A DNA stretch of 64,000 nucleotides from Hoylesella nanceiensis DSM 19126 = JCM 15639. Its GTDB lineage: Bacteria > Bacteroidota > Bacteroidia > Bacteroidales > Bacteroidaceae. Of the stretch, positions 545 through 61,173 are shown in pieces (position 1 is the stretch's first letter; the number at the start of each line of letters is the position of its first letter). The notes beneath the pieces are model-generated. The model made no database searches. It was not told where the DNA came from and worked only from the letters and a program-made list of their open reading frames with translations. Position numbers and translations under genes: made by a program. The stretch lies in NCBI RefSeq assembly GCF_000379965.1, contig NZ_KB904327.1, positions 620,001 to 684,000 of the forward strand, read 5' to 3'.

Positions 545-610
545 AATATCAATGCTTTTTCTTCATAAAAGCCATGCAATTACACTTCAACTGCATTGCT
601 TTTTATCCAC
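545..610 (+). repeat. 22-bp-period palindromic repeat array A (3 units)
   Basis: Three consecutive 22-bp units (545-566, 567-588, 589-610). The middle unit, starting AAAAGCCATGCAATTAC, matches the family core AAAAGCAATGCTTTTAC well; the flanking units keep only the AATGCTTTT or CATTGCTTTT half. Lies in the trmN6/lon divergent spacer. Confidence 0.65.
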
Positions 611-699
611 CTTTTCACCCTATTAAGACAGTAAATGTAGCTCTTTTCTAACTCAATCTACACCTCACTCTCCTACCCCCAACACCATTTTAGAATTAT

Positions 700-714
700 A
701 AAAGCATTGCTTTT
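700..714 (+). repeat. isolated copy of the 22-bp repeat core
   Basis: AAAAGCATTGCTTTT, a 15-bp dyad with one central unpaired base, identical to the best cores inside the arrays. It stands alone, about 90 bp from array A. Confidence 0.6.
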
Positions 715-1020
715 AACAACAAAACATGCTCATTAGCAAACAATCTATCTCATAATAATAATGCAAAACGCCCGAAACACTCATTAAATGAGCTAGAAAG
801 ACAATGAATTCGTACCCATCTACAACACAAAATATGTTAACATTTTTATATTTGGCTCATTTTTTGTTATTCAATATTACACTTTATAAAATACAAGAAA
901 TAAACATATAACACGACATTAAAAAGACAAGATAATACAAAAATAAGGTCATTACAACTCAAGTGCGTGCTCAATAACGAGTTTTAGTACACCTTATTAT
1001 AATATATCAATTATTATTTG

Positions 1021-1028
1021 TACCTTTG
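1021..1028 (+). promoter_or_regulatory. lon promoter, -7 box
   Basis: TACCTTTG matches the Bacteroidetes -7 consensus TAnnTTTG and ends 20 bases before the lon ATG, implying a leader of only about 14 nt. No clear TTG is seen at the -33 position. Confidence 0.7.
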
Positions 1029-1048
1029 TCGCCTAAAAAACAAACAAT

Positions 1049-3523
1049 ATGGACAACAAAATAAATGGCTCAATACAGATGATTGCCGACTATGATGGCG
1101 ATATTTCTACTCTTTTCAACACTACTGTTGAGGGTGAAATACCCATTCTTGCAACCCGCAATCTCATGCTCTTCCCAGGCGTTTTAACTCCTATTCTCAT
1201 CGGAAGAAAACAAAGTTTAAGCCTAATCAACAAGATATCAAAGAAAGAAGACCAAACTTTTGCCATCTTTTGTCAAAAAGATGCTGACGTAGACTCACCA
1301 AAGAAAGAAGATCTTTTCCACTATGGTGTATACGCAAAGCTTGTTCGTATCATTGAAATACCTAACAGTGGCAACAACGTAACAGCTGTTGTTCAAGGTC
1401 TTGGACGCTGTTCTTTAAGCGAAATAACAAAAGAAAAGCCTCATATTCAAGGTATAACAGCTAACGAGCAAGAAAAGATGCCAACCAAAAGAGATAAAGA
1501 ATTCTCTATGGCTATCGACGATTTACGCAAGCAAACAGCTGAATATATATTGAGAAACGAAGATATTCCAAGCGAATCTCAATTCGCAATGAATAACATT
1601 CGTAACAACATCGTTGCATTGAACTATATCTGTTCGAACTTACCTTTCAGCATTGAAGACAAATATAAATTGCTTTCAACTCCTGAAATCAAAGAAAGAA
1701 CCTTTATTGCATTGCAACTCCTTGACCAAGAAATACAAAAATTGGATCTCATTCAAAGTATTCGTTCAAAGACAAGAGAAGACCTTGATGAGCAACAAAA
1801 GGAATATTTCTTGCAACAACAAATAAAAAATATCAAGAGAGAGCTTAACAATGGCGAAGGAAGTCCTGAGAAATTGGCTCTTCGCAAGAAAGCTCTTAAG
1901 AAAGATTGGAACGAGAACATTAGCGAAGTATTCTACAAAGAGCTCGAGAAATTGGATATGTATAATCCTCAAAGTCCCGAGTATAGCATTCAACTTAACT
2001 ATCTTCAACAACTTGTTTCGCTTCCTTGGAACGAGTGTACAAAAGACGAGTTAGACCTTAAAAGAGCTCAAAAGATTCTCGACAAGGATCACTATGGCAT
2101 GGAAAAGGTTAAAGAACGCATCTTAGAACACCTTGCTGTATTGAAATTAAAGGGTGACCTTAAGGCTCCAATTATATGTCTTTATGGCCCTCCAGGAGTG
2201 GGTAAAACCAGTTTAGGTAAGAGTATCGCCGAGTCGATGAAGCGCAAATACATCCGCATGTCATTGGGTGGCGTTCACGATGAGTCTGAGATTAGAGGTC
2301 ACAGACGTACTTATATTGGCGCAATGCCTGGTAGAATTATCAAAAGTATACAAAAAGCTGGTTCGTCAAACCCTGTCTTTATCCTCGATGAAATAGACAA
2401 AGTGGGTACTATGAGCAATCATGGCGACCCTACATCTGCCCTTCTTGAGGTGCTAGACCCTGAGCAAAACAATGCGTTCCACGATAATTTCTTAGACTTA
2501 GACTACGATCTTTCTAAGGTATTATTTATCGCAACCGCAAATGATATCAGTGCTATTCCACGTCCATTGCTCGACCGTATGGAACTAATCGAAGTGAGTG
2601 GATATATAACTGAAGAGAAATTAGAGATCGCTAAACGTCATCTTATTCCTAAAGAGCTTGCAAACACTGGTCTAAATAGCCTTTCTAAGAAGATCACTTT
2701 CCCTAAAGCTACTCTTGAAATGATTATCGAAAAGTATACAAGAGAAAGCGGTGTGCGTCAATTAGAAAAGCAAATAGGTAAGGTTATGCGCAAAGTTGCA
2801 TTCAAATACGAGATTGATGGCGATTTAGCTTATAACAAACTCACAACCAATAACATTGAGGAACTACTTGGGAAAGCTCCATTTAGCAGAGATATTTACC
2901 AAGGAAACCAATATGCTGGTGTTGTAACTGGCTTAGCTTGGACTAGCGTTGGCGGTGAAATTCTATTCATTGAAACATCTCTAAGCAAAGGAAAAACAGG
3001 CAAGCTTACACTCACTGGTAATTTAGGTGATGTGATGAAAGAGAGTGCTGTCATTGCTCTTGAATACATTAAGGCTCATGCTGATGCGCTAAAGATAGAC
3101 TATCGCATCTTTGATCAATGGAATATTCACATTCATGTGCCTGAAGGTGCAACCCCAAAAGATGGTCCTTCGGCTGGTATTACAATTGCAACAAGTATTG
3201 CTTCGGCTCTAACTCAACGCAAAGTACGCAAGAATGTGGCTATGACTGGTGAGATTACACTCCGTGGAAAGGTACTTCCTGTAGGCGGAATCAAAGAAAA
3301 AATACTTGCAGCAAAGCGTGCAGGCATAACAGATATCCTCATTTGTCAAGACAATAAGAAAGATATTGAGGAAATTGCAGATATCTATTTACATGGAGTT
3401 ACATTCCATTACGTAGACACAATACAAGATGTTTTGGCCTTCGCTCTAACAAATGAAAAGGTAGATAATGCCATTTCATTTACTTTCGAAGATACTAAAA
3501 CAAAAGAAGAACAGCACAATTAA
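1049..3523 (+). CDS. lon: ATP-dependent protease Lon
   Basis: LonA protease, 824 aa, the usual length. It unfolds and degrades damaged and regulatory proteins in the cytoplasm as a hexamer. An N-terminal substrate-binding LON domain (about 30-240) is followed by a coiled segment, an AAA+ module with Walker A GPPGVGKT at 380-387 and Walker B FILDEIDK, and a C-terminal serine protease domain. The catalytic Ser lies in KDGPSAG (Ser708) and the Lys in GGIKEK (Lys751), the 43-residue spacing of E. coli Lon. The ATG follows the -7 box at 1021 closely. tgt starts 15 bp downstream, so the two are probably cotranscribed. Nothing is missing. Confidence 0.98.
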
Positions 3524-3538
3524 GCAACAATAGATAGA

Positions 3539-4666
3539 ATGAAGTTCGAATTAAAAGGCGTAGATGCCAACTCAAACGCACGTGCAGGAGTTATAACAAC
3601 TGACCACGGACAGATTGAAACACCTATTTTTATGCCCGTAGGAACATGCGGTAGCGTTAAAGGAGTGCATCTAAACGAACTAAAACAACAAATAAATGCG
3701 CAGATAATACTTGGTAATACTTACCATCTTTATTTGCGTCCAGGACTCGATATACTAAAGAATGCAGGTGGACTACATAAGTTCAACGGTTGGGATCGCC
3801 CTATATTAACTGATAGTGGCGGTTTCCAAGTATTCTCATTAACGGGCATTCGCAAGCTAAAAGAAGAGGGTTGCGAGTTCCGTTCGCATATTGATGGCTC
3901 TAAACACTTCTTTACTCCTGAGAATGTTATGGACACTCAAAGGGTAATTGGTGCTGATATTATTATGGCTTTCGATGAATGTCCACCAGGAAAGAGTGAC
4001 TATCAATATGCAAAGAATAGCTTAATGATGACCCAAAGATGGTTAGATCGCTGCTTAAAGCGCTTTAATGAAACCGAACCACTTTATGGTTATCAACAAA
4101 CTCTATTCCCTATTGTTCAAGGTTGCACTTATAAAGACTTGCGAAAAGACGCTGCTAAGTTCATAGCAGATAAGGGAGCAGATGGTAATGCCATTGGAGG
4201 TTTAGCCGTAGGAGAGCCTACTGAGGTGATGTATGAAATGATTGAGGTGGTGAATGACATTCTACCTACCTCAAAGCCACGCTACCTTATGGGTGTGGGA
4301 ACACCTCAAAACATTCTCGAAGGTATTGCTCGTGGAGTGGATATGTTCGACTGTGTGATGCCAACTCGTAACGGAAGAAACGCTATGTTGTTTACTTATG
4401 AGGGCACAATAAATATGAGAAACAAGAAATGGGAAAACGATTTCTCTCCTATTGACATTGATGGTTGCGAGACAGACCTTATCTATACAAAGGCATATCT
4501 GCATCACTTATACAAAGCTCAAGAGCTTTTAGCGATGCAAATAGGTAGTATTCACAACCTTGCTTTCTATCTTCGACTTGTAAAAGATGCACGTCAACAC
4601 ATCTTACAAGGCGACTTTGCAAGCTGGAAAGCTAGTGTAATTGAAAAACTTGGCAGACGACTTTAA
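3539..4666 (+). CDS. tgt: queuine tRNA-ribosyltransferase (Tgt)
   Basis: 375 aa, TIM-barrel enzyme that exchanges G34 for preQ1 in tRNAs with GUN anticodons (queuosine pathway). Visible signatures are LTDSGGFQVFSL, FDECPP, GGLAVGEP and the nucleophile region MFDCVMPTRNGR. Downstream the family normally has CxCxxC plus His as a structural zinc site. Here that stretch reads DGCETD (308-313): only the middle Cys (C310) remains, the other two are Asp, while the His of IHNL (H339) is kept. This may be a lineage trait rather than damage, as the rest is intact. queG, a later step of the same pathway, lies at 61.7-62.7 kb. Confidence 0.96.
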   Translation: MKFELKGVDANSNARAGVITTDHGQIETPIFMPVGTCGSVKGVHLNELKQQINAQIILGNTYHLYLRPGLDILKNAGGLHKFNGWDRPILTDSGGFQVFSLTGIRKLKEEGCEFRSHIDGSKHFFTPENVMDTQRVIGADIIMAFDECPPGKSDYQYAKNSLMMTQRWLDRCLKRFNETEPLYGYQQTLFPIVQGCTYKDLRKDAAKFIADKGADGNAIGGLAVGEPTEVMYEMIEVVNDILPTSKPRYLMGVGTPQNILEGIARGVDMFDCVMPTRNGRNAMLFTYEGTINMRNKKWENDFSPIDIDGCETDLIYTKAYLHHLYKAQELLAMQIGSIHNLAFYLRLVKDARQHILQGDFASWKASVIEKLGRRL

Positions 4667-4700
4667 AGCTATATTGGCGTAGATTACGAAACAATACGAT

Positions 4701-5930
4701 ATGAATAGTATCACATCAAACATAAAAGAACGATATCAAAAGATATCATCAACCATTAAAGAGAAGGCTTCTTTCCTTCTTCCTCTTTGGAATTTTCTGA
4801 AGAAGTATGGTGCTTTTTTAGCCTATTTCAATCCTAAGAGGTATATAAAGATACTTGATTGGTACATTATTAAGAAGTTTATTGGAACCTATATTTTCTC
4901 TATTATTCTTATCATTTCTGTCGCTATTGTCTTCGACGTGAATGAGAATTTGGCACGATTTGCACAATATCATGCCCCGTTAAAGGCTATTGTGTTTGAC
5001 TATTATGCCAACTTCGTTCCTTACTTCGCCAACCTTTTTAGTCCATTGTTTGTCTTTATTGCCGTTATTTTCTTCACTTCGAAGCTTGCAGGCAATTCAG
5101 AAATCATCTCAATACTAGCTGCTGGAGTATCATTTAAACGCCTTATGCGTCCTTATATGATATCTTGTGCATTGATATCAATGCTTTCTTATTACCTAAG
5201 TTCAAATGTTATTCCACACGGAACCGTTATTCGTCAGAACTTTGAAGCATTGTATAAGAATAAAACAAAGAACACTTCGGCAGATAACACCTTATTACAA
5301 GTAGACAAAGGAGTAATTGCTTCTATTCAACATTACGACAATAACAGTAAAAGAGGCTATGGATTCTCACTTGATAAATTCGAAAACAAGAAGCTAGTTA
5401 GTCACCTGACAGCACCAGAAATACAGTATGATACCATCTCAGACACCAAATATCACTGGACAATATCTAACTGGAAGATTCGCAAACTCGAAGGATTAAA
5501 AGAGAAGATAACAACAGGTTCTCAGCGAGATACAATCATAATGATGGAGCCAACCGACATTGTTTACTCAAAAGGACAGCAAGAAACCTTCACAAGTGCA
5601 CAACTTCAAGACTATATATCAAAGCAAATAGATCGTGGTAGTAGTAATGTTGTGCAGTATCAGGTGGAATATCACAAACGAATTGCATCGTCTTTTGCAT
5701 CATTTATCCTCACGACTATAGGATTATCGCTATCTTCTAGAAAGCGAAAAGGTGGAATGGGACTTTATATGGGTATTGGCTTGGCCCTCAGTTTCGGGTA
5801 TATCATGCTTCAAACGGTATCTGCAACATTTGCAATCAATGCCAATACGCCCCCTATAATTGCAGCCTGGATTCCCAACATCATATTTAGTTTGGTTGCA
5901 TATTTCTGCTATAGAAAGGCTCCAAACTAA
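4701..5930 (+). CDS. LptF/LptG-family (YjgP/YjgQ) permease
   Basis: 409 aa inner-membrane permease of the YjgP/YjgQ family, the membrane part of the LptBFG ABC transporter that extracts LPS from the inner membrane. Three hydrophobic helices occur in the first half (about 65-180), then a periplasmic beta-jellyroll-like region (about 185-315), then three more helices to the C terminus. The recognisable start of the family, LDWYIIKKFIGTY, is preceded here by about 50 extra, mostly basic residues, and no internal Met allows a shorter start. Starts 34 bp after tgt and probably belongs to the lon-tgt unit. LptF versus LptG cannot be decided. Confidence 0.88.
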   Translation: MNSITSNIKERYQKISSTIKEKASFLLPLWNFLKKYGAFLAYFNPKRYIKILDWYIIKKFIGTYIFSIILIISVAIVFDVNENLARFAQYHAPLKAIVFDYYANFVPYFANLFSPLFVFIAVIFFTSKLAGNSEIISILAAGVSFKRLMRPYMISCALISMLSYYLSSNVIPHGTVIRQNFEALYKNKTKNTSADNTLLQVDKGVIASIQHYDNNSKRGYGFSLDKFENKKLVSHLTAPEIQYDTISDTKYHWTISNWKIRKLEGLKEKITTGSQRDTIIMMEPTDIVYSKGQQETFTSAQLQDYISKQIDRGSSNVVQYQVEYHKRIASSFASFILTTIGLSLSSRKRKGGMGLYMGIGLALSFGYIMLQTVSATFAINANTPPIIAAWIPNIIFSLVAYFCYRKAPN

Positions 5931-5948
5931 TCAATCACAAATCAATAT

Positions 5949-5993
5949 ACCTTTTATTATATATAGACCCTCATTCTATTTCATAATAAAGGT
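5949..5993 (+). other. stem-loop between the permease and the DEAD-box gene
   Basis: ACCTTTTATTAT (5949-5960) can pair with ATAATAAAGGT (5983-5993) with one bulge. No T-run follows, so it is not a standard terminator; it might be an mRNA processing or attenuation structure. Confidence 0.35.
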
Positions 5994-6016
5994 TTAGACA
6001 ATAGAAACCAAGAAGA

Positions 6017-7405
6017 ATGTTTTTTGACGAATTAAATTTAAATGATAATATATTAGACGCACTCTATGACATGCGTTTTGACGAGTGTACACCTATTCAA
6101 GAGGCGTGTATTCCTGCCATCTTGAATAAAAGAGACATTTTAGGTGTTGCTCAAACGGGAACAGGAAAGACTGCTGCTTATTTGCTTCCAGTGCTCTCTT
6201 TGCTCGATGATGGAGGCTATCCCAAAGACAAAATCAATTGTATTATAATGTCTCCGACTCGTGAATTGGCTCAACAAATAGACCAAGCCATGCAAGGATT
6301 CAGCTATTATTTACAAGAAGTAAGTAGTGTTGCTGTGTATGGAGGTAACGATGGAAACCGCTATGACCAAGAGATTAAATCGTTAAAGCTAGGTGCAGAT
6401 GTGATCATTGCAACCCCAGGACGTTTAATTTCGCATTTATCTTTAGGCAACATCGATACTTCTGGAGTTTCATTCTTCATTCTTGACGAGGCCGATAGAA
6501 TGTTAGATATGGGCTTTTATGATGATATTATGACCATAGCAAAGCAGCTTCCACCCCATTGTCAGAACATTATGTTCTCTGCAACAATGCCTCCTAAGAT
6601 TGAAACTCTTGCACGAACAATACTCAAAAATCCTGAAACCATAAAGCTAGCAGTTAGTAAACCTGCTGAAAAGATAAAGCAATCGGCTTATGTTTGCTAT
6701 GAACCTCAGAAATTAAAGATCGTTACTAGTCTTTTTAATGCCGACAACTTGCAACGTGTTATCATCTTCTCTGGAAAAAAAGATAAGGTGAAAGACATTA
6801 ATAAAGCATTGCTTTCGAAGAAAATAAACAGTGGTGCTATGCACTCAGATCTATCGCAAGCAGAGCGAGATGAGGTGATGTTTAAGTTTAAAGCAGGGCA
6901 AATTGATGTACTAGTTGCAACTGACATTGTATCGAGAGGAATTGATATTGATGACATAAGAATGGTTATTAACTATGATGTTCCACACGATGTAGAAGAC
7001 TATATACACCGAATTGGTAGAACTGCAAGAGCCGACAGAGATGGTGAAGCCATTACCCTTGTGAGCGAAGAGGATATGTTCTATTTCCAACAAATCGAAC
7101 GATTCTTAGAAAAGACGATTGAAAAGACACCTAATCCAGATAACATTGGAACAGGACCAGAATATAAAAAGATTCAAAAATTCTCACGAAACAAGGGTAC
7201 CAAAGGAAGAAAACCTTCAAGAAAAACATCGTTCAAACGAGGTCAAAACAAAGACAATAAGCCTCAACTGCATAGCGTAAAAGCCCCCAACGCTCACCAT
7301 TCTAAAAAGAATAACAATGAGAACAATGGCACAAAACGCCCACACAAGCCAGTAAAAAGGCACAATAAGCCTACTGGTGCTAGCGAGAATACACCAAAAG
7401 AATAA
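6017..7405 (+). CDS. DEAD-box ATP-dependent RNA helicase (RhlE/DeaD type)
   Basis: 462 aa cytoplasmic RNA helicase for ribosome assembly or mRNA turnover. All core motifs are present: Q motif (FDEC then TPIQ), motif I AQTGTGKT, PTRELA, TPGR, DEAD, SAT, and HRIGRTAR (motif VI). Residues 1-375 form the two RecA-like domains. From about 385 the chain becomes a basic, Asn/Lys/Arg/His-rich low-complexity tail without hydrophobic clusters, probably a non-specific RNA-binding extension. Such tails are common in RhlE-like proteins, so the paralogue cannot be named. Confidence 0.95.
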   Translation: MFFDELNLNDNILDALYDMRFDECTPIQEACIPAILNKRDILGVAQTGTGKTAAYLLPVLSLLDDGGYPKDKINCIIMSPTRELAQQIDQAMQGFSYYLQEVSSVAVYGGNDGNRYDQEIKSLKLGADVIIATPGRLISHLSLGNIDTSGVSFFILDEADRMLDMGFYDDIMTIAKQLPPHCQNIMFSATMPPKIETLARTILKNPETIKLAVSKPAEKIKQSAYVCYEPQKLKIVTSLFNADNLQRVIIFSGKKDKVKDINKALLSKKINSGAMHSDLSQAERDEVMFKFKAGQIDVLVATDIVSRGIDIDDIRMVINYDVPHDVEDYIHRIGRTARADRDGEAITLVSEEDMFYFQQIERFLEKTIEKTPNPDNIGTGPEYKKIQKFSRNKGTKGRKPSRKTSFKRGQNKDNKPQLHSVKAPNAHHSKKNNNENNGTKRPHKPVKRHNKPTGASENTPKE

Positions 7406-7459
7406 TAGAAATAATTTAATAGAATAAATATTTTGCACAATTAAAAACCCGGAAATATT

Positions 7460-7975
7460 ATGCTAAAAAAGAACATCGAAGAAGCATTAAATGCTCAAAT
7501 CAATGCCGAAATGTGGTCGGCTTATCTTTATTTGTCAATGGCAGCGCACTGTCATGCAATCGGACAACCAGGTATGGGTAAATGGTTTGAAATTCAATTC
7601 AAAGAAGAACAAGACCATGCAAAAATTCTTTTCAACTACGTTATCGCACGCAATGGAAAGGTTTCTCTTAAACCTATCGATTCTGTTCCAACAGAATGGA
7701 GTTCTATTTTGAATATTTTCGAAAGCACATTGCGCCACGAACAACAAGTAACAGAAATGATAAACAAGCTGTTTGCTCTTACATCAAAAGAGAACGACTA
7801 TGCAACTCAAAGTATGTTACAATGGTTCATTGACGAACAAGTTGAAGAAGAAGAGAATGTTCAAACCATTATCGACAACATTAAGATGGTTCAAGACAAT
7901 GGTTATGGCTTGTATATGATTGACAAGGAACTTGGTTCTAGAACTTATTCTGAGGCTTCTCCCCTTACAAAATAA
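7460..7975 (+). CDS. ftnA: non-heme ferritin
   Basis: 171 aa, typical of bacterial FtnA, which forms a 24-subunit shell that oxidises Fe(II) and stores iron. The four-helix bundle is visible with ferroxidase-type residues: INAEMWSAYLY in helix A, FKEEQDHA in helix B and WFIDEQVEEEENV in helix D. A single-gene unit is likely, since a strong terminator follows at 8005-8050. The C-terminal tail (SRTYSEASPLTK) is ordinary for the family. Confidence 0.97.
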   Translation: MLKKNIEEALNAQINAEMWSAYLYLSMAAHCHAIGQPGMGKWFEIQFKEEQDHAKILFNYVIARNGKVSLKPIDSVPTEWSSILNIFESTLRHEQQVTEMINKLFALTSKENDYATQSMLQWFIDEQVEEEENVQTIIDNIKMVQDNGYGLYMIDKELGSRTYSEASPLTK

Positions 7976-8004
7976 ATGTAAGGAGTGAGATTTCTCACGA
8001 TAAG

Positions 8005-8050
8005 AATAGCTCTACAAAGCTCAAATTTGACTTTGTGGAGCTATTTTTTT
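8005..8050 (+). terminator. rho-independent terminator after ferritin
   Basis: AATAGCTCTACAAAG (8005-8019) pairs with CTTTGTGGAGCTATT (8031-8045), followed by a run of T. Confidence 0.9.
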
Positions 8051-8101
8051 ATATCCAAATATCTACCCAAATGGAAGACATCTAACCAACACCTTCTAAT
8101 T

Positions 8102-8211
8102 ACAAGGAATATTATTGCTTCATAAAAGCTATCTTTTTGAAGGCTAAAAGGAATGTTATTGCATTGTAAAAACAATGGTTTTAGAACATAAACTCATTGC
8201 TTTTAAAAGAG
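8102..8211 (+). repeat. 22-bp-period palindromic repeat array B (5 units)
   Basis: Five units in exact 22-bp register at 8102, 8124, 8146, 8168 and 8190. Units 2 to 4 start AAAAGC, AAAAGG and AAAAAC. Placed in the convergent spacer between ferritin and the frameshifted transferase gene. A 77-codon ORF (8175-8408) crosses the array and is judged spurious. Confidence 0.8.
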
Positions 8212-8371
8212 AATTTCATCTAAAAGTAAATTCAAAGATATTGCCTTCTTGTCAAGAAAGCCTCAAAATTCATTATATACCTTCACTAAATAAAGATATA
8301 CTTTTAATCAACTGGAAGCCATATATACAACAAATGCCCTCTAAAAGAGAGCATTTATTGTATTATTTGAA

Positions 8372-52364: not shown

Positions 52365-52394
52365 CAAAGTAAAAGAAAATTATTGAGACAACAA
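52365..52394 (-). promoter_or_regulatory. promoter of the OmpA-family gene
   Basis: On the minus strand TTG (52392-52394), a 19-bp gap, then TTACTTTG (52365-52372), one base off TAnnTTTG. Leader about 45 nt. Confidence 0.5.
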
Positions 52395-52754: not shown

Positions 52755-52875
52755 ACAAAGCCTATACCCCACTCCATCAGCATCCACATCAGACCTCAAG
52801 AAGCATAAAACCTGTTATTATTCACATCTTAAATAAATAATAGATTTAAGTCTACTATATTTTAAATTAATGTGT

Positions 52876-52883
52876 TAACTTTG
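52876..52883 (+). promoter_or_regulatory. -7 box of the THUMP methyltransferase gene, with long leader
   Basis: TAACTTTG about 198 bases before the start codon. The leader contains a small GGC/GCC hairpin (52892-52902) and an 11-codon ORF at 52948 (MRSDVLSEGKT). I recognise no riboswitch. Confidence 0.45.
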
Positions 52884-53080
52884 CACCAGATAGGCTCTTT
52901 GCCGAAGAAAAGATTGTAAAACGAATAAAACAAGTACTCAAAACCATGCGTTCTGATGTACTTTCAGAAGGCAAGACCTAACACGAAGCAAGAGATAAAG
53001 CGATTTAAAAGCCTCTAATTGCTTACTTCAATCAAAATAGATTAACACATACATTATCAAAATATTTAAGAAAGACGAAT

Positions 53081-54541
53081 ATGGAATTTGAACTCATCGC
53101 CAAAACCTTTATGGGATTGGAACAAGTATTGGCACAAGAACTCACTCAATTAGGCGCAAACAACATCACCATAGGCAGGAGAATGGTTGCCTTTACGGGA
53201 GATAAAGGACTGATGTATCGTGCAAATTTCCAACTACATACAGCCATCAGAATATTAAAACCCATCAAACATTTCAAGGCAAACTCTGCAGATGACGTGT
53301 ATGAAGAAATCAAAAAAATAGACTGGAGCCAATATATTGAGAAAGGAAAGACCTTCTCTGTTGATTCTGTTGTATATTCTGAAGAATTTAGAAACTCTCG
53401 TTTTGTGACCTATAAGGTTAAAGATGCCATCGTAGACCAATTCAGAGAGAGCACAGGAACACGTCCAAACATTTCGATTTCGAATCCCGACATTCGTTTA
53501 AATATCCACATTGCTGACGACAAAGCTACTCTTTCACTCGACTCAAGTGGTGAAAGTCTTCACCGAAGAGGTTACCGCCAAGAAACAACCGAAGCCCCAT
53601 TAAATGAGGTTTTGGCCGCAGGTATGATCCTAATGAGCGGTTGGAAGGGCGAAACAGACTTCATTGACCCTATGTGTGGCTCTGGAACTCTGCTCATTGA
53701 GGCTGCTCTTATCGCAAGAAACATCAACCCTGGTGTGTTTAGAAAGGAGTTTGCGTTTGAGCGTTGGAATGATTTTGATAAAGAACTATTCGACAATATT
53801 TATAATGATGATAGCCAAGAGCGTGATTTTGAACATCATATTTATGGCTACGATATCGACATTAAGGCTGTAAACACAGCTCGCTTAAATGCAAGAGCAG
53901 CTGGACTTACAAAGGATATCACTATCGAAGAGGCTGACTTCAAGAACTTTAAGCAGCCCGAAAATCCTGCTATTCTTATCACTAACCCACCTTATGGTGA
54001 ACGTATCTCAACACCAAACCTTCTCGGAACCTATAAGATGATTGGCGAAAGACTTAAACATCAATTTGTTGGTAACGATGCTTGGATATTGAGTTATCGT
54101 GAAGAATGTTTTGAACAAATAGGACTTAAACCCTCTATTAAGATACCTGTATTTAATGGTTCACTAGAATGTGAATTCAGAAAGTATGCCCTTTTCGGAG
54201 GAAGAATGAAAGATTTTAGAGAAGAAGGTGGAATTGTAAAAACTGAAAGTGAAAAGAAACAGATGGCTGAAAAACATCGTTTCAAGAAAAATAGAGAGTT
54301 TAAAAAGAAGATAGAAGAAGAGGAAGAGAACGAAGTTTCAGACATTCGATCATTTAAATTCCATTCTCTTGAGCGCAAAAAGCCCTCATCTTTCCGTGAT
54401 AAAGACGACGATGAACGCCGTGAAAGACGTGGACACAGATTCTCTAAAACCGATAAATCTGGTAATAGAAAAGATCGTCAAGAACAACGTCGCAAGATGT
54501 TTGGCTCGTCAAAGCGTGGCAATAAACCTACAACAAAATAA
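53081..54541 (+). CDS. THUMP-domain rRNA methyltransferase (RlmL N-terminal/YpsC-like)
   Basis: 486 aa. A THUMP RNA-binding domain (about 45-155) precedes a Rossmann SAM-methyltransferase with DPMCGSGTLLIEAAL (motif I) and NPPYGER (catalytic NPPY), as in the N2-guanine 23S rRNA methyltransferases. From about residue 378 a highly charged, Lys/Arg/Glu/Asp-rich tail of about 110 residues follows with no hydrophobic core, probably an RNA- or ribosome-binding extension. The gene precedes the DPP-IV-like gene by 10 bp. Confidence 0.9.
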   Translation: MEFELIAKTFMGLEQVLAQELTQLGANNITIGRRMVAFTGDKGLMYRANFQLHTAIRILKPIKHFKANSADDVYEEIKKIDWSQYIEKGKTFSVDSVVYSEEFRNSRFVTYKVKDAIVDQFRESTGTRPNISISNPDIRLNIHIADDKATLSLDSSGESLHRRGYRQETTEAPLNEVLAAGMILMSGWKGETDFIDPMCGSGTLLIEAALIARNINPGVFRKEFAFERWNDFDKELFDNIYNDDSQERDFEHHIYGYDIDIKAVNTARLNARAAGLTKDITIEEADFKNFKQPENPAILITNPPYGERISTPNLLGTYKMIGERLKHQFVGNDAWILSYREECFEQIGLKPSIKIPVFNGSLECEFRKYALFGGRMKDFREEGGIVKTESEKKQMAEKHRFKKNREFKKKIEEEEENEVSDIRSFKFHSLERKKPSSFRDKDDDERRERRGHRFSKTDKSGNRKDRQEQRRKMFGSSKRGNKPTTK

Positions 54542-54551
54542 AACCTAAACT

Positions 54552-56762
54552 ATGATGCTTAAAGGAAAAATCTTGAAATCACTGCTCATTGCAGCATTAA
54601 CGTGCTTTAGTTGGCAAACATCTATGGGACAAAAGACATTTACATTGGAAGACCTTAATTACGGAGGAACGAACTTTTACAACATGAGAGTTCAAACTCG
54701 CTATACTAATTGGTGGGGAGATGAACTCATTAAAGGTGATGTTGAAGCTTGTTACCTTGTTAATAAACAAACAGGGAAAGAGCAAGTATTGTTCGAATTG
54801 AAAGATGTTAATGCCCTATTAGATAGCGACAAAAGCCATCAAGTACACCATTTGATGAGCTGTACTTTTCCTTATAGCAACAAAACTCTTGCATATATCG
54901 TAACAGGTAAGCAACATCTGCTCTATGATTGGACAAAGAAAAAGATTGAATGGATTCAAAATAAAGAAACAACCGATGTACAATCGTGGAACGCCCAGTC
55001 TCTTTCTACAGCCTATATCCTTAACAATAACCTTTTTGTTAGCGATAAAAAAGGCAATAAAACTCAATTAACTACCGACGGAAGTAGTGATATTGTATAT
55101 GGAAAAGCAGTGCACAGAGACGAATTTGGAATATATAAAGGTTTGTTTTGGAGTAATGATGGAGAGCAATTGGCATTCTATCGTATGGACCAAAGTATGG
55201 TAGAAACCTACCCACAAGTAAATGTTTTCACCCCAATAGCAACTCTTGAGCCCGACAAATATCCAATGGCTGGTCGCACAAGTCATAAGGTTACGGTTGG
55301 GATATATAACGCATCAACAGGCAAAACAATATATCTTGCAGTAGGAGATCCTACAAATCGCTACTTCACCAACATACAATGGAGTCCCGATAACAAGATT
55401 CTTTATCTCATTGAGTTGAACAGAAAGCAAACAAAAATGCAGTTAGATGCTTATGATGCTGCAACTGGTAAGAAGATAAAGACACTCTATACCGAAGAAA
55501 GTAACAAGTATGTACACCCTGTAACACCTATCACTTTCCTTCCATGGAATAAGAATCAATTCATTCTTCAAAGTGAAAAAGACGGCTATAACCACCTCTA
55601 TTTATTCAATACTAATGGTGAATTACAACGCCAAATCACTTCAGGTAAGTGGGTAGTGCTAGACCTTATGGGCTTTAACAGCAGTAAAAAATATGCTTAT
55701 ATCCTATCAACTGAATGCAATCCAATACAAAATAACATCTTTGCAGTGGATATAGCAAGTGGCAAACGCACTCTTCTCGATAACGGAAAGGGTTGTCATG
55801 CTAACACGTACGGTGAGAATAACAAACATCGTTTGGCTGTATCTGAGTCTGGAAAGTGGATTATTGATAATTATAGTGAACCACAAGTGCCTCGCAATAT
55901 CAATATCATCAACACCGAAAACAAAAAGACTTTAACTTGGTTTACAGCTCCAAACCCTTGGAAAGGCTACACTGTTCCTGAGTTTACTAGCGGTAGCATC
56001 AAGGCTGCAGATAACCAAACGGACCTTTATTACAGAATGGTTAAGCCTACAAACTTCGACCCTAACAAGAAATATCCAACGATAATATATGTTTATGGCG
56101 GTCCTGGTGTACGCAATGTAGAGGCTCGTTGGAACTATAGTAGCAGGGGTTGGGAAACCTATATGGCACAAAAAGGATACTTGTTGTTTATCTTAGACAA
56201 CAGAGGTTCAAGCGATAGAGGACTCGAATTCGAACAAGCTACTTTCCATAAGCTTGGAGTTGAAGAGATGAAAGACCAAATGAAGGGTGTCGACTTCTTA
56301 ACCTCTCTCCCCTATGTAGATAAGAATCGCATTGGAATTCACGGCTGGAGCTTTGGCGGTTTCATGACAACTAACCTCATAACTACCTACCCTGAGGTGT
56401 TTAAAGTAGGCGTTGCAGGTGGTCCAGTCATTAATTGGGAGTGGTATGAAGTGATGTATGGCGAGCGTTATATGGGCACTCCACAAGACAATAAGGAAGG
56501 TTATAACAACAGCAACCTATTGAATAAGGCTAAAAACCTTAAAGGTAAGCTTCAGATAATCATTGGTATGAACGACCCTGTTGTGGTTCCTCAACATGCA
56601 GAAAACTTCTTAAAGAGCTGTATTGACGCAGGAACTCAACCCGACTTCTTCATCTATCCAGGTGAAGGACATAACATGAGAGGTCATTCAAGCGTACATC
56701 TTCACGAGAGAATTACCCAATATTTTGAAGATTATCTCAAGCCTTTAAAAGCCAAAGAATAG
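54552..56762 (+). CDS. S9 family peptidase, dipeptidyl peptidase IV-like
   Basis: 736 aa exported serine peptidase. A signal peptide (about 1-26, cut near SMGQ) precedes an eight-bladed beta-propeller (about 60-470) and an alpha/beta-hydrolase domain with the complete triad Ser600 (GWSFGGF), Asp675 (GMNDPVV) and His707 (GEGHNM). The propeller contains the dipeptidyl-peptidase-like DEFGIYKGLFWS. It removes N-terminal dipeptides, in line with the peptide-fermenting life of oral Bacteroidetes. It follows the methyltransferase gene closely and precedes purD by 33 bp. Confidence 0.93.
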   Translation: MMLKGKILKSLLIAALTCFSWQTSMGQKTFTLEDLNYGGTNFYNMRVQTRYTNWWGDELIKGDVEACYLVNKQTGKEQVLFELKDVNALLDSDKSHQVHHLMSCTFPYSNKTLAYIVTGKQHLLYDWTKKKIEWIQNKETTDVQSWNAQSLSTAYILNNNLFVSDKKGNKTQLTTDGSSDIVYGKAVHRDEFGIYKGLFWSNDGEQLAFYRMDQSMVETYPQVNVFTPIATLEPDKYPMAGRTSHKVTVGIYNASTGKTIYLAVGDPTNRYFTNIQWSPDNKILYLIELNRKQTKMQLDAYDAATGKKIKTLYTEESNKYVHPVTPITFLPWNKNQFILQSEKDGYNHLYLFNTNGELQRQITSGKWVVLDLMGFNSSKKYAYILSTECNPIQNNIFAVDIASGKRTLLDNGKGCHANTYGENNKHRLAVSESGKWIIDNYSEPQVPRNINIINTENKKTLTWFTAPNPWKGYTVPEFTSGSIKAADNQTDLYYRMVKPTNFDPNKKYPTIIYVYGGPGVRNVEARWNYSSRGWETYMAQKGYLLFILDNRGSSDRGLEFEQATFHKLGVEEMKDQMKGVDFLTSLPYVDKNRIGIHGWSFGGFMTTNLITTYPEVFKVGVAGGPVINWEWYEVMYGERYMGTPQDNKEGYNNSNLLNKAKNLKGKLQIIIGMNDPVVVPQHAENFLKSCIDAGTQPDFFIYPGEGHNMRGHSSVHLHERITQYFEDYLKPLKAKE

Positions 56763-56795
56763 TAAACAACGAATAAATAATATATTGATCAGCAT

Positions 56796-58064
56796 ATGAA
56801 AATATTACTTTTAGGAAGCGGTGGACGTGAACATGCCTTAGCATGGAAGATTGCACAAAGTCCAAAAGTAGAACAATTGTTCATTGCTCCAGGCAATCCT
56901 GGAACTCAAAATGTAGGAACTAACGTTGCAATAGGCGTAAACGACTTCGATAAGATCAAAGCTTTCGCTCTCGAAAAGCAGATCGATATGATTGTAGTGG
57001 GACCTGAAGATCCACTCGTAAAGGGCATTTATGACATCTTTAAAAACGACCCTTCAACAAGTCATATCGCTATTGTTGGACCTTCAAAAGAAGGTGCTCA
57101 GCTCGAAGGTAGCAAAGATTTTGCTAAAGCTTTCATGCAACGTCACAACATACCAACAGCTCGTTACAAAACAGTTACAGCCGAAACACTTAACGAAGGT
57201 ATTGCTTTCTTAGAGTCATTAAAGGCTCCTTATGTTCTTAAAGCTGACGGATTGTGCGCAGGAAAAGGTGTTTTAATCCTTCCAACACTTGAAGAAGCCA
57301 AGAAAGAACTACAAGAAATGCTTGGCGGAATGTTTGGAAATGCCTCTGCCACCGTTGTTATTGAAGAGTTCTTAAGCGGTATTGAATGTTCTGTTTTTGT
57401 GCTTACAGATGGCAAGAACTATAAGATTCTTCCCGAAGCAAAAGACTATAAGCGTATTGGAGAAGGCGACACAGGCTTAAATACAGGTGGAATGGGTAGC
57501 GTAACTCCTGTGCCTTTTGCAACAAAAGAATGGATGCAGAAAGTTGACGAGCGCATTATTAAGCCTACAATAGAAGGACTTGCGAGCGAAAATATCACCT
57601 ATAAAGGATTCATTTTCTTTGGTCTTATCAATGTAGAGGGCAACCCTATGGTGATAGAATATAACTGTAGAATGGGTGATCCCGAAACTGAAAGCGTGAT
57701 GTTGCGCATTAAGAGCGACCTTGTTGATTTGCTCGAAGGTGTTGCAAACGAAAATATTGAAACCAAAGAGATTGTTTTCGACGAGCGTTCTGCAGTGTGC
57801 GTAATGCTTGTTAGTGGCGGTTATCCTGGCAATTATGATAAAGGATTCGTTATCAATAACATTGAAAAGGTGGAAGATAGCGTTGTTTTCCATGCAGGAA
57901 CTACCACAAACAACAACGAAATTGTTACCAGTGGAGGACGTGTTATTGCTGTTTCTTCATACGGACAAGATAAGAACGAAGCTTTAAACAAGAGCTTTAA
58001 GGCTGCCAATACCATTACTTTTGAAGGCAAATACTTTAGAAGTGACATAGGAAAAGACTTATAG
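56796..58064 (+). CDS. purD: phosphoribosylamine-glycine ligase
   Basis: 422 aa ATP-grasp enzyme, the second step of purine synthesis (phosphoribosylamine plus glycine to GAR). The start [15 protein letters not shown], the [15 protein letters not shown]-binding loop and YNCRMGDPE near 290 are family hallmarks. Length is normal and it is complete. The gene after it begins two bases past the stop, so it is cotranscribed with two membrane-protein genes of unrelated function. Confidence 0.97.
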
Positions 58065-58065
58065 A

Positions 58066-58995
58066 ATGGCAATAAGAAGATTACAAAACAAAATTGCAAA
58101 CAACCGATTGTCGTTATTGTTCACGGCTCTTTATGCCCTCGCAATAACGCTTCCAACAGCCATAACAACAGGAACGATATGGGTGCAGCTAGCCATTATA
58201 GCTGCATCTACCTTGTTAATGGTTGAGCTCAACAATGCTTATGCTTTGATAAGAGAGTTTAGTAGGATGGTGTCGTGCAGCTTTTTGATACTCACCATTG
58301 CTCACTTTCAACTCATCTACTCTTTAGAAGGAAGCATTGTGCAAATTTGTTTTATCTTCTTTTACCTCTTTCTCTTCCGTTCCTATCAAAATAAAAGATC
58401 GCCTGGGTGGGTCTTTTATGCCTTTATGTCATTGGGAATAGCAGGAATATTCTTTCCACAAATCGTATTTTTAGTACCTCTTTTGTGGATAATCCTTTTC
58501 TCTAAAGTACTTGCAGGCAGTATAAAAACACTCACAGCATCAATATTAGGCTACCTAACTCCTTATTGGATTATAGGCGGTTACTTGGTTTATAAAGACG
58601 AGTTATCGGTTGGCTACGATTATATTGCACAGCTAACACAATTCGAACCCATCTGCATTTATAATCAGATAGAGTTTAAAGCCTATCTATTCTTTGGATT
58701 CTTAATGCTTTTAACCTTAGTAGGAACCATTCATTTCCTACGCAACAGCTTCCTCGACAAAATCAAAACACGAATGATTTACGAAGCATTGATGGTTATA
58801 AACATTGGTTGTATTGTGTTTCTTATACTGCAACCACAGCATTATTCATTCCTCATTCGACTCATTATCGTTAATACATCGCCTTTTATTGGGCATTTTA
58901 TCACACTCACTCGCACTCGTTTAACCAATATAACATTTATTGTTTTCACTCTCAGTGCAGTGGCATTAACTCTTTATACTTTATGGATGCCATAA
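58066..58995 (+). CDS. polytopic membrane protein of unknown function
   Basis: 309 aa, mostly hydrophobic with about ten predicted helices, short basic N terminus (MAIRRLQNKIANNR). No transport or enzyme motif is visible. It begins two bases after purD and overlaps the next gene by 13 bp, so translation is coupled to both. It may belong to a Bacteroidetes-specific family of undetermined function. Confidence 0.72.
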   Translation: MAIRRLQNKIANNRLSLLFTALYALAITLPTAITTGTIWVQLAIIAASTLLMVELNNAYALIREFSRMVSCSFLILTIAHFQLIYSLEGSIVQICFIFFYLFLFRSYQNKRSPGWVFYAFMSLGIAGIFFPQIVFLVPLLWIILFSKVLAGSIKTLTASILGYLTPYWIIGGYLVYKDELSVGYDYIAQLTQFEPICIYNQIEFKAYLFFGFLMLLTLVGTIHFLRNSFLDKIKTRMIYEALMVINIGCIVFLILQPQHYSFLIRLIIVNTSPFIGHFITLTRTRLTNITFIVFTLSAVALTLYTLWMP

Positions 58996-59435
58996 CAGAT
59001 CTTCTCGTAAACTATGGTTATTGGGGCATGCTTCTTTCAGCTTTTCTTGCTGGAAGCTTCCTACCTTTTAGTAGTGAAGCCGTTATGGTGGCTCTTCTTG
59101 CAGCTAAGTTAGACTCTTGGCAGCTCATCATCTACGCAACAATCGGAAACGTCTTAGGTGGAATGTTTAACTATTGGTTAGGCACTTTCGGTAGAATAGA
59201 CTGGATTGAGAAGTATTTACACGTTAAAGAAGAGAAGCTTAAACGCACCCAACGCTTTATGGAAGGACGTGGAGCATGGATGGGTTTCTTTGCATTTGTA
59301 CCCATTGTTGGTAGCGCAATTACCATTGTTTTAGGCTTAACACGTGCCAATATACCCATTTCTGTAACCTCAATAACAGTAGGAAAGTTCCTACGTTATG
59401 TACTTTTAGTTTATGGTGCAAGCCTATTTTTTTAA
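58983..59435 (+). CDS. YqaA-family small DedA-like membrane protein
   Basis: 150 aa, four or so hydrophobic helices with the family features GYWGMLLSAFLAGSFLPF, SEAVMVALL, IGNVLGGMFNYWLG and FFAFVPIVGSAITIVLG. The DedA/YqaA group has been linked to lipid flipping and membrane potential, but a specific role is not established. It overlaps the previous gene by 13 bp and the next start is 5 bp on, so all are one transcript. Confidence 0.85.
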   Translation: MDAITDLLVNYGYWGMLLSAFLAGSFLPFSSEAVMVALLAAKLDSWQLIIYATIGNVLGGMFNYWLGTFGRIDWIEKYLHVKEEKLKRTQRFMEGRGAWMGFFAFVPIVGSAITIVLGLTRANIPISVTSITVGKFLRYVLLVYGASLFF

Positions 59436-59439
59436 GAAT

Positions 59440-60270
59440 ATGAAAAGAACTTTCTTTTATTTACTGATATGTTTAATGGCTTTTTCTGCCTGCAAACAAA
59501 ACAAAACACAAGACTCTTCGCTCGTATTTGTAACCATCGAGCCTTTAAAATACTTCGCTAATGAAATAGGTGGAGATAAGTTTAAGGTAGAAACAATGGT
59601 TCCCAAAGGCGGAAATCCTGAGACTTACGAACCTACAGCGAAGCAAATGATGCGTCTTTCGCAATGTCCTATCTTTATTAAGGTGGGCAATATTGGTTTT
59701 GAAAGAACATGGAACGAACGACTACATCAAAGTGCTCCTAACACAATGTTCATAGATTCATCTGAAGGAATCAGTCCAATTGAATCGTCAGAGCATGTAG
59801 ACGACCCACACACATGGATGAGTTGCGACAATGCTATCGTTATAGCACGACACATTTGCAATGCTTTTAAACAACAAAAGCCTGCCGACAGCACCTATTT
59901 CAATCAGAATTTAAATCGTTTCATTGCCAAGGTCAATCTAACTGATCAAGCAATTAAGGGAATGTTGTATAAGAGTAACACCAAAGCATTTTTGATATAC
60001 CACCCCACCCTCACCTATTTTGCGCACAACTATCAGCTCATTCAAATTCCAGTTGAGGAGGAAGGACGTGAGCCAAGCGCAGCACAATTAAAGCAAACGA
60101 TTGTCTTTGCCAAGAAGAACAACACAAAGATTATGTTTGTTCAGAAAGAGTTTGCCAACAGAAACACTCAAGTTGTGGCTGAGGGAGCAGGCGTTAAACA
60201 AGTGGATATCAACCCACTGAGCTATCAATGGCACGACGAAATGATGAAGATTGCAAAGGCTTTACAATAG
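59440..60270 (+). CDS. ZnuA-like metal-binding lipoprotein of an ABC importer
   Basis: 276 aa from the ATG at 59440; an upstream in-frame GTG-type start at 59413 would overlap the YqaA gene. A lipobox ends at LMAFSAC. This is a cluster 9 (ZnuA/TroA) solute-binding protein: FVTIEPLKYF, PKGGNPETYEPT, DDPHTWMSC, YHPTLTYFAH and VDINPL. The canonical first His ligand (PHxYEP in ZnuA) is Glu here, while the second (DPHTW) and third (YHPTL) are kept, so the metal could be zinc or manganese. Coupled to the ATPase gene downstream. Confidence 0.86.
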   Translation: MKRTFFYLLICLMAFSACKQNKTQDSSLVFVTIEPLKYFANEIGGDKFKVETMVPKGGNPETYEPTAKQMMRLSQCPIFIKVGNIGFERTWNERLHQSAPNTMFIDSSEGISPIESSEHVDDPHTWMSCDNAIVIARHICNAFKQQKPADSTYFNQNLNRFIAKVNLTDQAIKGMLYKSNTKAFLIYHPTLTYFAHNYQLIQIPVEEEGREPSAAQLKQTIVFAKKNNTKIMFVQKEFANRNTQVVAEGAGVKQVDINPLSYQWHDEMMKIAKALQ

Positions 60271-60319
60271 AATTTCCTTGCAAACGAAGATTTCTCACAA
60301 CATAAGAAAGGGAGAACAG

Positions 60320-61075
60320 ATGACACCTATCATTGAAATAAAAGATTTATCGGCTGGTTATAACGGCAAGACTATCATCGAAAACATATCGCTCACTGTT
60401 TTTGAGAACGACTTTTTGGGTATTATTGGACCCAATGGAGGCGGAAAGACAACACTTCTTCGCACCATTCTTGGTCTACTAAAACCCTATAAAGGCACCA
60501 TATCATTTTTCGACAATGGCGTTCCTTGCGATAACATTGCAATAGGTTATCTTCCTCAATATAGTAAGATAGATAAAGAATTCCCTATCTCTGTGTACGA
60601 AGTGGTGCTCTCTGGACTTAGTAAGAACAAACCTCTTTTTAGATCATACACTAAAGGACAACACGAACAAGTGAAGCAAACGCTTGAAGAAATGCAGCTA
60701 ATGCCTTTCGCACAACGCCCTATTGAAGCTTTAAGCGGAGGTCAGTTGCAACGTGTTCTACTTGCCCGTGCCATTGTTTCAAAGCCTAAATTACTGGTAT
60801 TAGACGAGCCAAACACTTACATAGACCGACGTTTTCAAGACCAAATGTATGAGATGTTGAACAATATCAATAAGCATTGTTCCATCGTTATGACTAACCA
60901 CGACATTGGAACGATTCTACAAAATGTCAAAAATATCGCTTGCATGAACAAGCACTTACACTACCATTCTAACACTGAAGTACCCGAAGAATGGATTGAA
61001 GAACACTTTGGTTGCCCAATAGAAATGGTTGCTCATGGAGATATCCCACACCGAGTACTTAAAAACCACAAATAA
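60320..61075 (+). CDS. ZnuC-like metal ABC transporter ATPase
   Basis: 251 aa from the ATG at 60320 (preceded by GGGAGAAC, a rare visible ribosome-binding site); a longer frame from 60251 overlaps the previous gene. Walker A GPNGGGKTT, signature LSGGQLQRV, Walker B LLVLDEPN and H-loop NHD are complete. It pairs with the ZnuA-like gene. The expected membrane permease (ZnuB) is not encoded next to it: repeat array K and a convergent gene follow. Confidence 0.9.
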   Translation: MTPIIEIKDLSAGYNGKTIIENISLTVFENDFLGIIGPNGGGKTTLLRTILGLLKPYKGTISFFDNGVPCDNIAIGYLPQYSKIDKEFPISVYEVVLSGLSKNKPLFRSYTKGQHEQVKQTLEEMQLMPFAQRPIEALSGGQLQRVLLARAIVSKPKLLVLDEPNTYIDRRFQDQMYEMLNNINKHCSIVMTNHDIGTILQNVKNIACMNKHLHYHSNTEVPEEWIEEHFGCPIEMVAHGDIPHRVLKNHK

Positions 61076-61085
61076 GTTTCGGAAC

Positions 61086-61173
61086 AAAAGCAGTGATATT
61101 GCAACCTAATAGCAATGTTATTATAAAGCAAAAGCAATGTTTTTAGCCTCTAAAAACATTGCTTTTATATTTA
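61086..61173 (+). repeat. 22-bp-period palindromic repeat array K (4 units)
   Basis: Units at 61086, 61108, 61130 and 61152, exactly 22 bp each, 88 bp total, beginning AAAAGC, AATAGC, AAAAGC and AAAAAC. In the convergent spacer between the ZnuC-like and DUF4112 genes. Confidence 0.86.

Follow-up and report, generated by a model that had tools for sequence, protein, structure and literature searches.

What keeps a degenerate tandem repeat between genes at a strict 22-bp step, and does it stand in any relation to the DNA of the genes around it? The question is raised by a window of 64,000 nucleotides from contig C1 of Hoylesella nanceiensis (genome G000), in which an earlier note had described eleven such arrays, here termed A to K. 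All eleven are present, and the strict step claimed for them holds, since 25 pairs of matches lie exactly 22 bp apart in the window against none in 20 of 20 dinucleotide shuffles. Matches to the palindrome AAAAGCAWTGCTTTT at 12 or more of its 15 positions number 56, whereas 20 dinucleotide-shuffled copies hold 9.2 on average and never more than 15. The two checks that the note had proposed thus come out in its favour: shuffled sequence does not reproduce the 22-bp-phased matches, and arrays are present in the rest of the genome. Genome-wide, the pattern with at most one mismatch is found at 247 places and the reversed-pattern control at none. Two of its start coordinates are out of register: array D begins at 17591 and not 17599, and array C begins at 12191. 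The arrays themselves had been correctly recognised; what had been missed is the four-unit count, the constancy of the scaffold under cores that differ by species, and the kilobase register in coding DNA. Tandem Repeats Finder, at a score of 30, reports a period of 22 in only two of the eleven arrays (12192-12272 and 52689-52749), a poor recovery that may be the reason why such arrays escape annotation.

A periodic profile trained on the window and 19 more 20-kb stretches of the same genome defines the unit as (AAWA)(GCAWTGC)(TWTT)(RCNNNGY), a degenerate dyad of 22 bp that is palindromic around two centres 11 bp apart. Applied to 840 kb of G000, the profile finds 129 multi-unit arrays, a density of 154 per Mb; a single block-shuffled copy contains no such array. 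Exactly four units are present in 98 of these arrays, five in 17 and another number in 14. The same preference is displayed by the first 444 kb, with four units in 53 of 65 multi-unit arrays; there, 82 hits of any kind compare with 2-5 in five dinucleotide block shuffles. Units 1 to 4 are conserved equally and positions 0 and 5 drop below background, so that the array is an 81-bp module with sharp edges rather than an open-ended satellite.

Conservation is confined to defined parts of the unit. Between arrays, identity is ~0.69 in the core and ~0.30, near chance, at the five middle spacer positions. Within arrays the core presents a slight but significant excess of identity (0.711 versus 0.688 when permuted, maximum 0.701 of 300), the spacer values being 0.320 versus 0.295 (maximum 0.336 of 300). 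Across arrays, units that share a number resemble each other scarcely more than units that do not (0.691 versus 0.688). Memory of shared flanks or of unit index is essentially nil in G000, with 71.5 bits of information inside the arrays against 69.4-70.6 in five permuted sets, and the flanks carry 12.2 bits against 4.9-5.7 in five shuffled-flank sets, an excess that is mostly phased A/T. Hairpin or cruciform covariation was sought in 259 units. In the first dyad, pairing exceeds expectation in two of seven pairs, by at most 0.013, and falls below it in five, one of them far under (0.43 versus 0.52); in the second dyad it exceeds expectation in four of 14 pairs, by at most 0.026. Only three of the 21 pairs have clear mutual information, namely 5-11, 6-10 and the second dyad's innermost pair, and in two of these three it runs against pairing. 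Conserved cores without arm covariation point to half-sites read by a putative protein.

The arrays are embedded in a rhythm that extends for kilobases: base usage in the surrounding genes oscillates at 10.98 bp and keeps register with the arrays over 2-3 kb to either side. Outside them, AA and TT hold the phase of the unit every 22 bp, and the effect crosses gene borders. When coding DNA alone is profiled and averaged over 123 arrays, each distance bin between 100 and 2400 bp has a spectral peak at 10.95-11.00 bp, with a power of 50-98 against medians of 0.7-1.2. Finer anchored fits give 10.97-11.005 bp on both sides, out to 3-4.4 kb and fading with distance; phasing at 11.00 bp slips at 1.5-2 kb, and a period of 10.985 bp cures the slip. 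The rhythm is also revealed without any anchor: AA autocorrelation in the 840 kb remains coherent at 10.98 bp up to a lag of 4 kb, and for lags of 2.5-4 kb its power is 232 where the median is 0.4, which amounts to a persistent helical A/T periodicity. Phase agreement between 500-bp windows is 0.76, 0.57, 0.33 and 0.11 at distances of 0.5, 1, 2 and 4 kb in G000, versus 0.03-0.19 with a noise level of 0.07 in 100 kb of Escherichia coli K-12. In 76 pooled Bacteroidales loci, from which the four with order had been set aside, agreement is at the shuffled level (0.024 versus 0.021).

The coding signal is concentrated where the protein sequence is free to vary. The ~36,000 four-fold degenerate third codon positions that lie 100-1500 bp from an array display a modulation of 41% for G and C (z 23-24) and of 18-19% for A and T, compared with 4-10% at codon positions 1 and 2, and the phases at four-fold sites are mirror-symmetric between strands about the array centre. 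Over the same distances, coding G+C anchored to the arrays reaches z = 48.7 (264,595 bases), which synonymous shuffling within genes cuts to ~16, about one third of the signal remaining. Gene ends used as anchors yield a mean z of 5.4 (maximum 9.6, 10 sets), and jittered or random anchors do not exceed 0.78 on a scale on which the real data within 1 kb give 1.5-2.3. In the window alone, all eleven arrays lie between -0.18 and 0.00 turn of the surrounding coding phase, and the corresponding z of 13.0 is higher than in any of 300 jittered (maximum 10.2) and 300 random sets (maximum 11.7). A second species, G108, is concordant, with z of 5.6-8.4 at four-fold sites and 14.7 in coding DNA. The register is encoded largely in the DNA, at synonymous positions, and not in the protein.

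Neighbouring arrays are also in phase with each other, as judged from arrays of at least three units and a scan of periods from 8 to 30 bp. No period in the scan fits the neighbour distances better than 21.95 bp, at which they lock (nR2 25.6, n = 110); distances above 1.5 kb give nR2 = 24.7 at this period (n = 108), where the maximum of 500 jittered nulls is 11.7, and second-neighbour distances give 14.7, again at 21.95 bp (n = 97). The lock stems mainly from the C2 stretch (n = 73). In G108, 16 distances below 4 kb lock at 21.92 bp (nR2 10.9).

Placement was counted with spacers defined by simple open reading frame (ORF) calls. The 129 arrays comprise 115 in 112 spacers, 11 inside called ORFs and three at stretch ends, and the earlier observation that every spacer type is used extends to the 840 kb (64 tandem, 30 convergent and 21 divergent). 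A single array occupies 109 of the 112 spacers; the rule that a spacer never holds two arrays, true of the first 50, is broken by the other three. Among spacers of the first 444 kb, an array of at least three units is found in 26 of 39 of 400 bp or more, 16 of 51 of 200-400 bp and six of 48 of 100-200 bp. Of two continuous stretches, one has 76 arrays at a mean distance of 5.6 kb and the other 20 arrays at 7.9 kb. Gaps below 2.5 kb are rarer than with random spacer filling (8 versus 19-23 and 0 versus 3.5-5), and short gaps of 0.1, 0.5 and 0.8 kb still occur. Regular spacing was considered and abandoned, the coefficient of variation lacking significance over the 420-kb stretch and reaching it only in part over the 160-kb stretch; only the short-gap deficit holds. 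Distances from arrays to gene 3' ends are shorter than those to 5' ends.

The geometry of the arrays is more widespread than their sequence. The G000 consensus is common only in G000, since among 59 other genomes it is found at 49 places in G012, 17 in G014 and 0-9 elsewhere. The bare scaffold A4-N7-T4-N7-A4-N7-T4, with at most one mismatch, is found at least 100 times in 17 genomes of the 200 examined in the genus (G000 included), with counts of up to 774 and most genomes below 30; the reversed control for this scaffold also matches the arrays and hence provides no null. Other cores are carried on the 22-bp scaffold, for example AAAAGRTNAYCTTTT in G010 and AAAACCTACGCTTTT in G017. In a lag test on 20 stretches of the genus (385 kb), several of which were picked for high scaffold counts, 22 bp stands out with 32 windows against 2-10 at other lags from 10 to 43, and 20 genomes of other families display nothing special at 22 bp (one window in 274 kb, runs of N excluded). 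In G108 the arrays sit in an oriented repeat of ~190 bp whose ends, TGTAAATATTTTTC and GAATTATCTTTACA, are imperfectly inverted; this repeat, which resembles a miniature inverted-repeat transposable element (MITE), is present at ~50 places in 400 kb of C2 of that genome, and no such ~190-bp element was found in G000. Downstream of pheS in G212, at ~8935-9110 of stretch L089, lies a tight 22-bp array of at least six near-identical units AAAGGACAACTTTGATGCGACC that overlaps a naive ORF call and is a more satellite-like form.

Long-range order is likewise found in only part of the group. Of 80 named Bacteroidales loci around pheS, scores were computed for the 76 that measure 7 kb or more. At these loci, AA/TT phase order stands out in Prevotellaceae KH2P17, Prevotella sp. 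S7-1-8, P. falsenii and P. pallens, and does not at those of Segatella copri, P. ruminicola and Dysgonomonas. Scored locus by locus for A/T content, P. pallens and Prevotella sp. S7-1-8 exceed shuffles only slightly, despite their AA/TT autocorrelation signal. In one Bacteroides locus (L237) a peak near 11 bp is confined to lags of 700-1500. Among 20 genus stretches around pheS, order is detected by both measures in G108, G017, G142, G161, G210, G006, G003 and G099, only just by the second measure in G017, and by the second measure only in G012 and G063. A 21-kb locus of Bacteroidia bacterium 43-41 displays long-lag AA/TT order at 12.1 bp, not 11 (power 64, lags 700-1500).

A species-specific dyadic core, a 22-bp step, a preferred count, a register in the flanks and locking at 22 bp, all read from sequence, would be most simply accounted for by a dimeric nucleoid protein, or by a DNA path that a protein sets. 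On this reading, to which we give even odds, a sequence-specific nucleoid protein that repeats every two turns would have its high-affinity reference sites in the arrays. Binding to one DNA face at two turns per unit, as the earlier note had suggested, is still the best reading of the conserved cores, variable spacers, lack of pairing excess and fixed 22-bp step. An abundant nucleoid protein would bind one dyad-symmetric unit per 22 bp on one face of the DNA, and four adjacent units would make up a platform of ~81 bp, of which an intergenic spacer nearly always has just one. From there the protein, or a regular DNA path set by it, would run on through the flanking genes in register, and over evolution G/C and A/T would become imprinted on opposite faces of the helix with a 10.98-bp repeat, mostly at synonymous positions. 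Drift of the protein's sequence preference among species would change the cores and leave the 22-bp geometry in place. The kilobase rhythm in step with the arrays, largely synonymous in its encoding, has the look of a trace left in the sequence by a regular bacterial chromatin. That some Prevotella chromosomes are held in a regular, phase-continuous two-turn chromatin, with four-unit arrays as register marks and the packaging written in synonymous codons, is a larger claim and falls somewhat short of even. The protein, its polymerisation or continuous wrapping, and a purpose in compaction or in separating transcription units are what we infer from these patterns.

A number of results weigh against a nucleoid protein that keeps register from array to array. 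The lock is absent at distances of 6-20 kb (n = 41), fails to appear when the C1 stretch with the window is taken by itself (n = 19, p 0.27 at 22 bp), and is not evident in the ten distances of the window, which are few and scattered; G108 at longer distances and G010 present no clear lock either. In G010 arrays are present and long-range order is weak. The 22-bp component itself is weak in coding G+C (z 3.9 in G000 versus 1.5-3.2 after synonymous shuffling; 0.6 in G108). Array presence at orthologous flanks is not common to G000, G010 and G108 (Fisher p 0.30-1.0 in 12 small tables), so array placement looks lineage-specific; an impression that the position after pheS is conserved failed this test in the three species, with few wide syntenic spacers. 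The G108 arrays were likely spread by transposition. Known proteins offer no obvious reader. An Lrp/AsnC octamer would supply four dimers for four units, but in the conserved paralogue, the one Lrp/AsnC homologue of G000, the recognition helix is near-invariant across species with different cores, unlike that of a species-variable reader. HU is present in 18 of 18 genomes and ParB_N in 17 of 17 (one gene in G000), so that neither HU nor ParB/Noc provides a contrast, and the histone fold PF00808 is found in none of 18 genomes, other histone families not having been searched. As an observation on HU in its own right, all 18 genomes carry an adjacent HU-type pair, in which an ORF of ~100 aa lies beside one of ~380-550 aa with an HU domain and a long extension (G000 C1:50025-50583).

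The behaviour of array-free DNA belongs on the same side of the balance. Local rhythm strength is near-flat, going from 4.1 to 3.4 over the first 4 kb from an array, and is down to about half past 6 kb. Array number per 10-kb bin correlates with coherence in one of the stretches (rho 0.40, p 0.008); the other displays no such correlation (rho -0.22, p 0.41). Thirteen array-free gaps in the two stretches exceed 10 kb, and the lowest rhythm amplitudes are those of the two longest: 1.06 versus a stretch median of 2.14, with a neighbour coherence of 0.46, in a gap of 32.1 kb, and 1.26 versus 1.70, with a coherence of 0.54, in the 18.7-kb gap that extends from array K. Most of the other 11 are near-normal (amplitude 1.3-2.2, coherence 0.46-0.90), suggesting that arrays are phase marks more than the source of the rhythm. 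The gaps lowered our estimate for the nucleoid protein from slightly better than even to even, and made that for regular chromatin, already short of even, slightly lower still. Six proteins tested from the 32.1-kb gap comprise two GmrSD proteins, an McrBC protein, an EVE-domain AAA protein, a leucine-rich repeat (LRR)/RHS protein of 2056 aa and one without a match; ten proteins of the 18.7-kb gap past the window edge all have a Pfam match, nine of them to polysaccharide or sugar-transfer families. Both gaps look horizontally acquired. The notion of foreign islands without rhythm had nevertheless to be softened, as these are the weakest of the 13 gaps in amplitude, yet their rhythm is not nil, and most other gaps keep theirs. 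Restriction and defence genes are located with the 2056-aa LRR/RHS gene at G000 C2:380001-400000, in the low-coherence gap, and a capsule/polysaccharide cluster (UDP-galactopyranose mutase, LicD, glycosyltransferases) at G000 C1:684001-700000, where no arrays occur and the 11-bp rhythm is weaker than in the surroundings.

Explanations that dispense with a dedicated protein have to account for the same data. Intrinsically bent arrays might pin the tips of plectonemes, with the register in the flanks following the course of the supercoiled arms. An A/T tract returns every 11 bp, and in a wedge model the arrays are more curved than their own shuffles (length over end-to-end distance 1.08 versus 1.04 in G000, 1.31 versus 1.04 in G108 and 1.22 versus 1.05 in G010); the mean inter-array distances fit this picture, as does the common attribution of a period near 11 bp to negatively supercoiled DNA, found in the available text of PMC4132750 and contested in that of PMC7537859. 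The G000 curvature is slight, however, and a bent tip requires neither a species-specific 7-bp core nor a 22-bp step, nor a lock at 21.95 instead of 10.98 bp; pure intrinsic curvature would thus be a weaker explanation than the protein, and we regard the plectoneme model as unlikely. A mutational imprint, in which a regular path or bound protein biases mutation or repair at each turn without selection and only the arrays are selected, would suit the concentration of the signal at synonymous sites and its weakness in the capsule locus and the defence island. Codon positions 1 and 2 carry the signal too (0.04-0.10) and about a third of it survives synonymous shuffling, which makes this account improbable; it still requires a stable register, and is therefore a variant of the nucleoid-protein reading.

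The arrays might instead be mobile elements akin to BrickBuilt (compared below), spread separately in each species and inserting, or surviving, in phase with a pre-existing helical rhythm. The common oriented flanks of ~190 bp and imperfect inverted ends of the G108 copies argue for this, as do positions that are not detectably conserved between species and a sequence peculiar to each. Against it stand the negligible flank and index memory in G000, a near-random spacer beside a conserved core, the mostly four-unit arrays with sharp edges, and the coding register, which insertion alone leaves unexplained. The Y1 transposase PF01797 has no match in G000, with matches in five of 14 genomes as a control, and the DDE transposases that are the usual partners of MITEs were not searched; on balance mobility alone appears a rather unlikely origin. 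Transcription terminators or RNA hairpins, with AAAAGC-GCTTTT units acting in RNA at gene ends, would agree with the palindromic units and with the proximity of arrays to 3' ends. Systematic compensatory pairing of the arms is lacking, 21 of the 115 arrays lie in divergent spacers, and the coding register is left unexplained, so that Rho-independent terminators, which are GC-rich stems with a T run at 3' ends only, were rejected as candidates and the hairpin account is very improbable.

The features of the window are compiled in Table 1. An isolated perfect dyad, AAAAGCATTGCTTTT, is located at window positions 700-714, ~100 bp from the degenerate array A.

Table 1. Arrays and base-composition register in the 64-kb window. 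Phase is that of coding G+C relative to the array centre, in turns.
Feature	Window coordinates	Description	Phase
Array A	501..603	weaker, five degenerate units (earlier start 545)	-0.16
Array B	8102..8204	five units, convergent spacer	-0.07
Array C	12191..12271	four units, tandem spacer	-0.03
Array D	17591..17671	four units, tandem spacer	-0.02
Array E	25143..25245	four units by profile (25165-25245) and a weak fifth at 25143, tandem spacer	-0.13
Array F	32742..32822	four units, divergent spacer	-0.02
Array G	38056..38136	four units, tandem spacer upstream of DNA topoisomerase gene	-0.17
Array H	45758..45838	four units, convergent spacer	0.00
Array I	50004..50084	four units, convergent spacer, 162 bp past pheS stop	-0.05
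Array J	52667..52747	four units, divergent spacer	-0.18
Array K	61086..61166	four units, convergent spacer, 11 bp past stop codon	-0.15
10.98-bp base-composition register	1..64000	coding and intergenic, in phase with all eleven arrays, drifts slowly over kilobases	

How bacterial DNA is folded at the scale of 10-1000 bp is still open, and the role of its weak 11-bp rhythm is disputed. A strong, kilobase-long rhythm tied to discrete mutable sites makes the folding question directly testable. Were the nucleoid-protein reading true, DNA packaging would set a constraint on codon usage, a fast-evolving DNA-recognition system would be held uniform over hundreds of sites per species, and with the regular chromatin of the larger claim bacteria would possess a counterpart to nucleosome phasing.

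Several known systems share features with the arrays. Repetitive extragenic palindromic (REP) sequences and bacterial interspersed mosaic elements (BIMEs), with their REP-associated tyrosine transposases (RAYTs), form hundreds of intergenic palindromic elements, often close to gene 3' ends, and are alike in being numerous, intergenic and palindromic. A REP/BIME-RAYT identity was rejected in view of the lack of a Y1 transposase in G000, the lack of hairpin covariation and the strict 22-bp tandem geometry. Arrays of clustered regularly interspaced short palindromic repeats (CRISPR) were rejected too, as degenerate 15-bp cores with 7-bp joints replace near-identical repeats; cas genes were not searched. 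H-NS, ParB/Noc and Lrp/AsnC possess high-affinity nucleation sites from which they spread laterally or wrap DNA, and the role proposed for the arrays would work alike, with neither ParB nor Lrp/AsnC linked to the arrays (H-NS was not searched). A similar repeat in a Bacteroidales genome is described in the available text of PMC4596501: BrickBuilt, a MITE of Porphyromonas gingivalis with 23-nt units AGAYCATARTATCCTCTCRTRTG and 19 copies in ATCC 33277, of which BrickBuilt_5 contains 18 full repeats, and whose leader and tail ends resemble IS5-family elements. As far as that text describes it, BrickBuilt shares with the arrays intergenic tandem units of about two helical turns and a restriction to species, and with the G108 form inverted-repeat-like ends. 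It differs in that the present unit is a dyadic palindrome of 22 bp, present four at a time in hundreds of copies that do not fit the 23-nt consensus, and its leader and tail with terminal inverted repeats have no equivalent in G000 and a partial one in G108.

The rhythm in the flanks has its own precedent. A helical A-tract periodicity of ~10-11 bp, persistent signals included, is reported for prokaryotic genomes in the available text of PMC3431218 (Abel and Mrazek 2012), PMC4132750 (on a structural code in cyanobacteria) and PMC7537859 (Atzinger and Lawrence 2020). It is strongest at the third codon position, and in E. coli the correlations reach at least 1 kb (PMC7537859). The period near 11 bp and the preference for third codon positions are common to both; the published E. 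coli signal, as far as that text gives it, is weak, with ~2% variation in spacings (a different measure from the one used here), and no anchor is named. The word Prevotella is absent from PMC3431218, PMC4132750, PMC7537859 and PMC3940949, and among the titles and abstract openings listed in searches of the open PMC literature none names the arrays or an array-anchored phase order. A weak ~11-bp periodicity is thus already established, and what is new is its strength, its kilobase phase order and its anchoring to discrete arrays: G000 differs from the published periodicity by a phase order that persists over kilobases, a 41% modulation of G and C at four-fold sites, a register set by the arrays and a lock between one array and the next.

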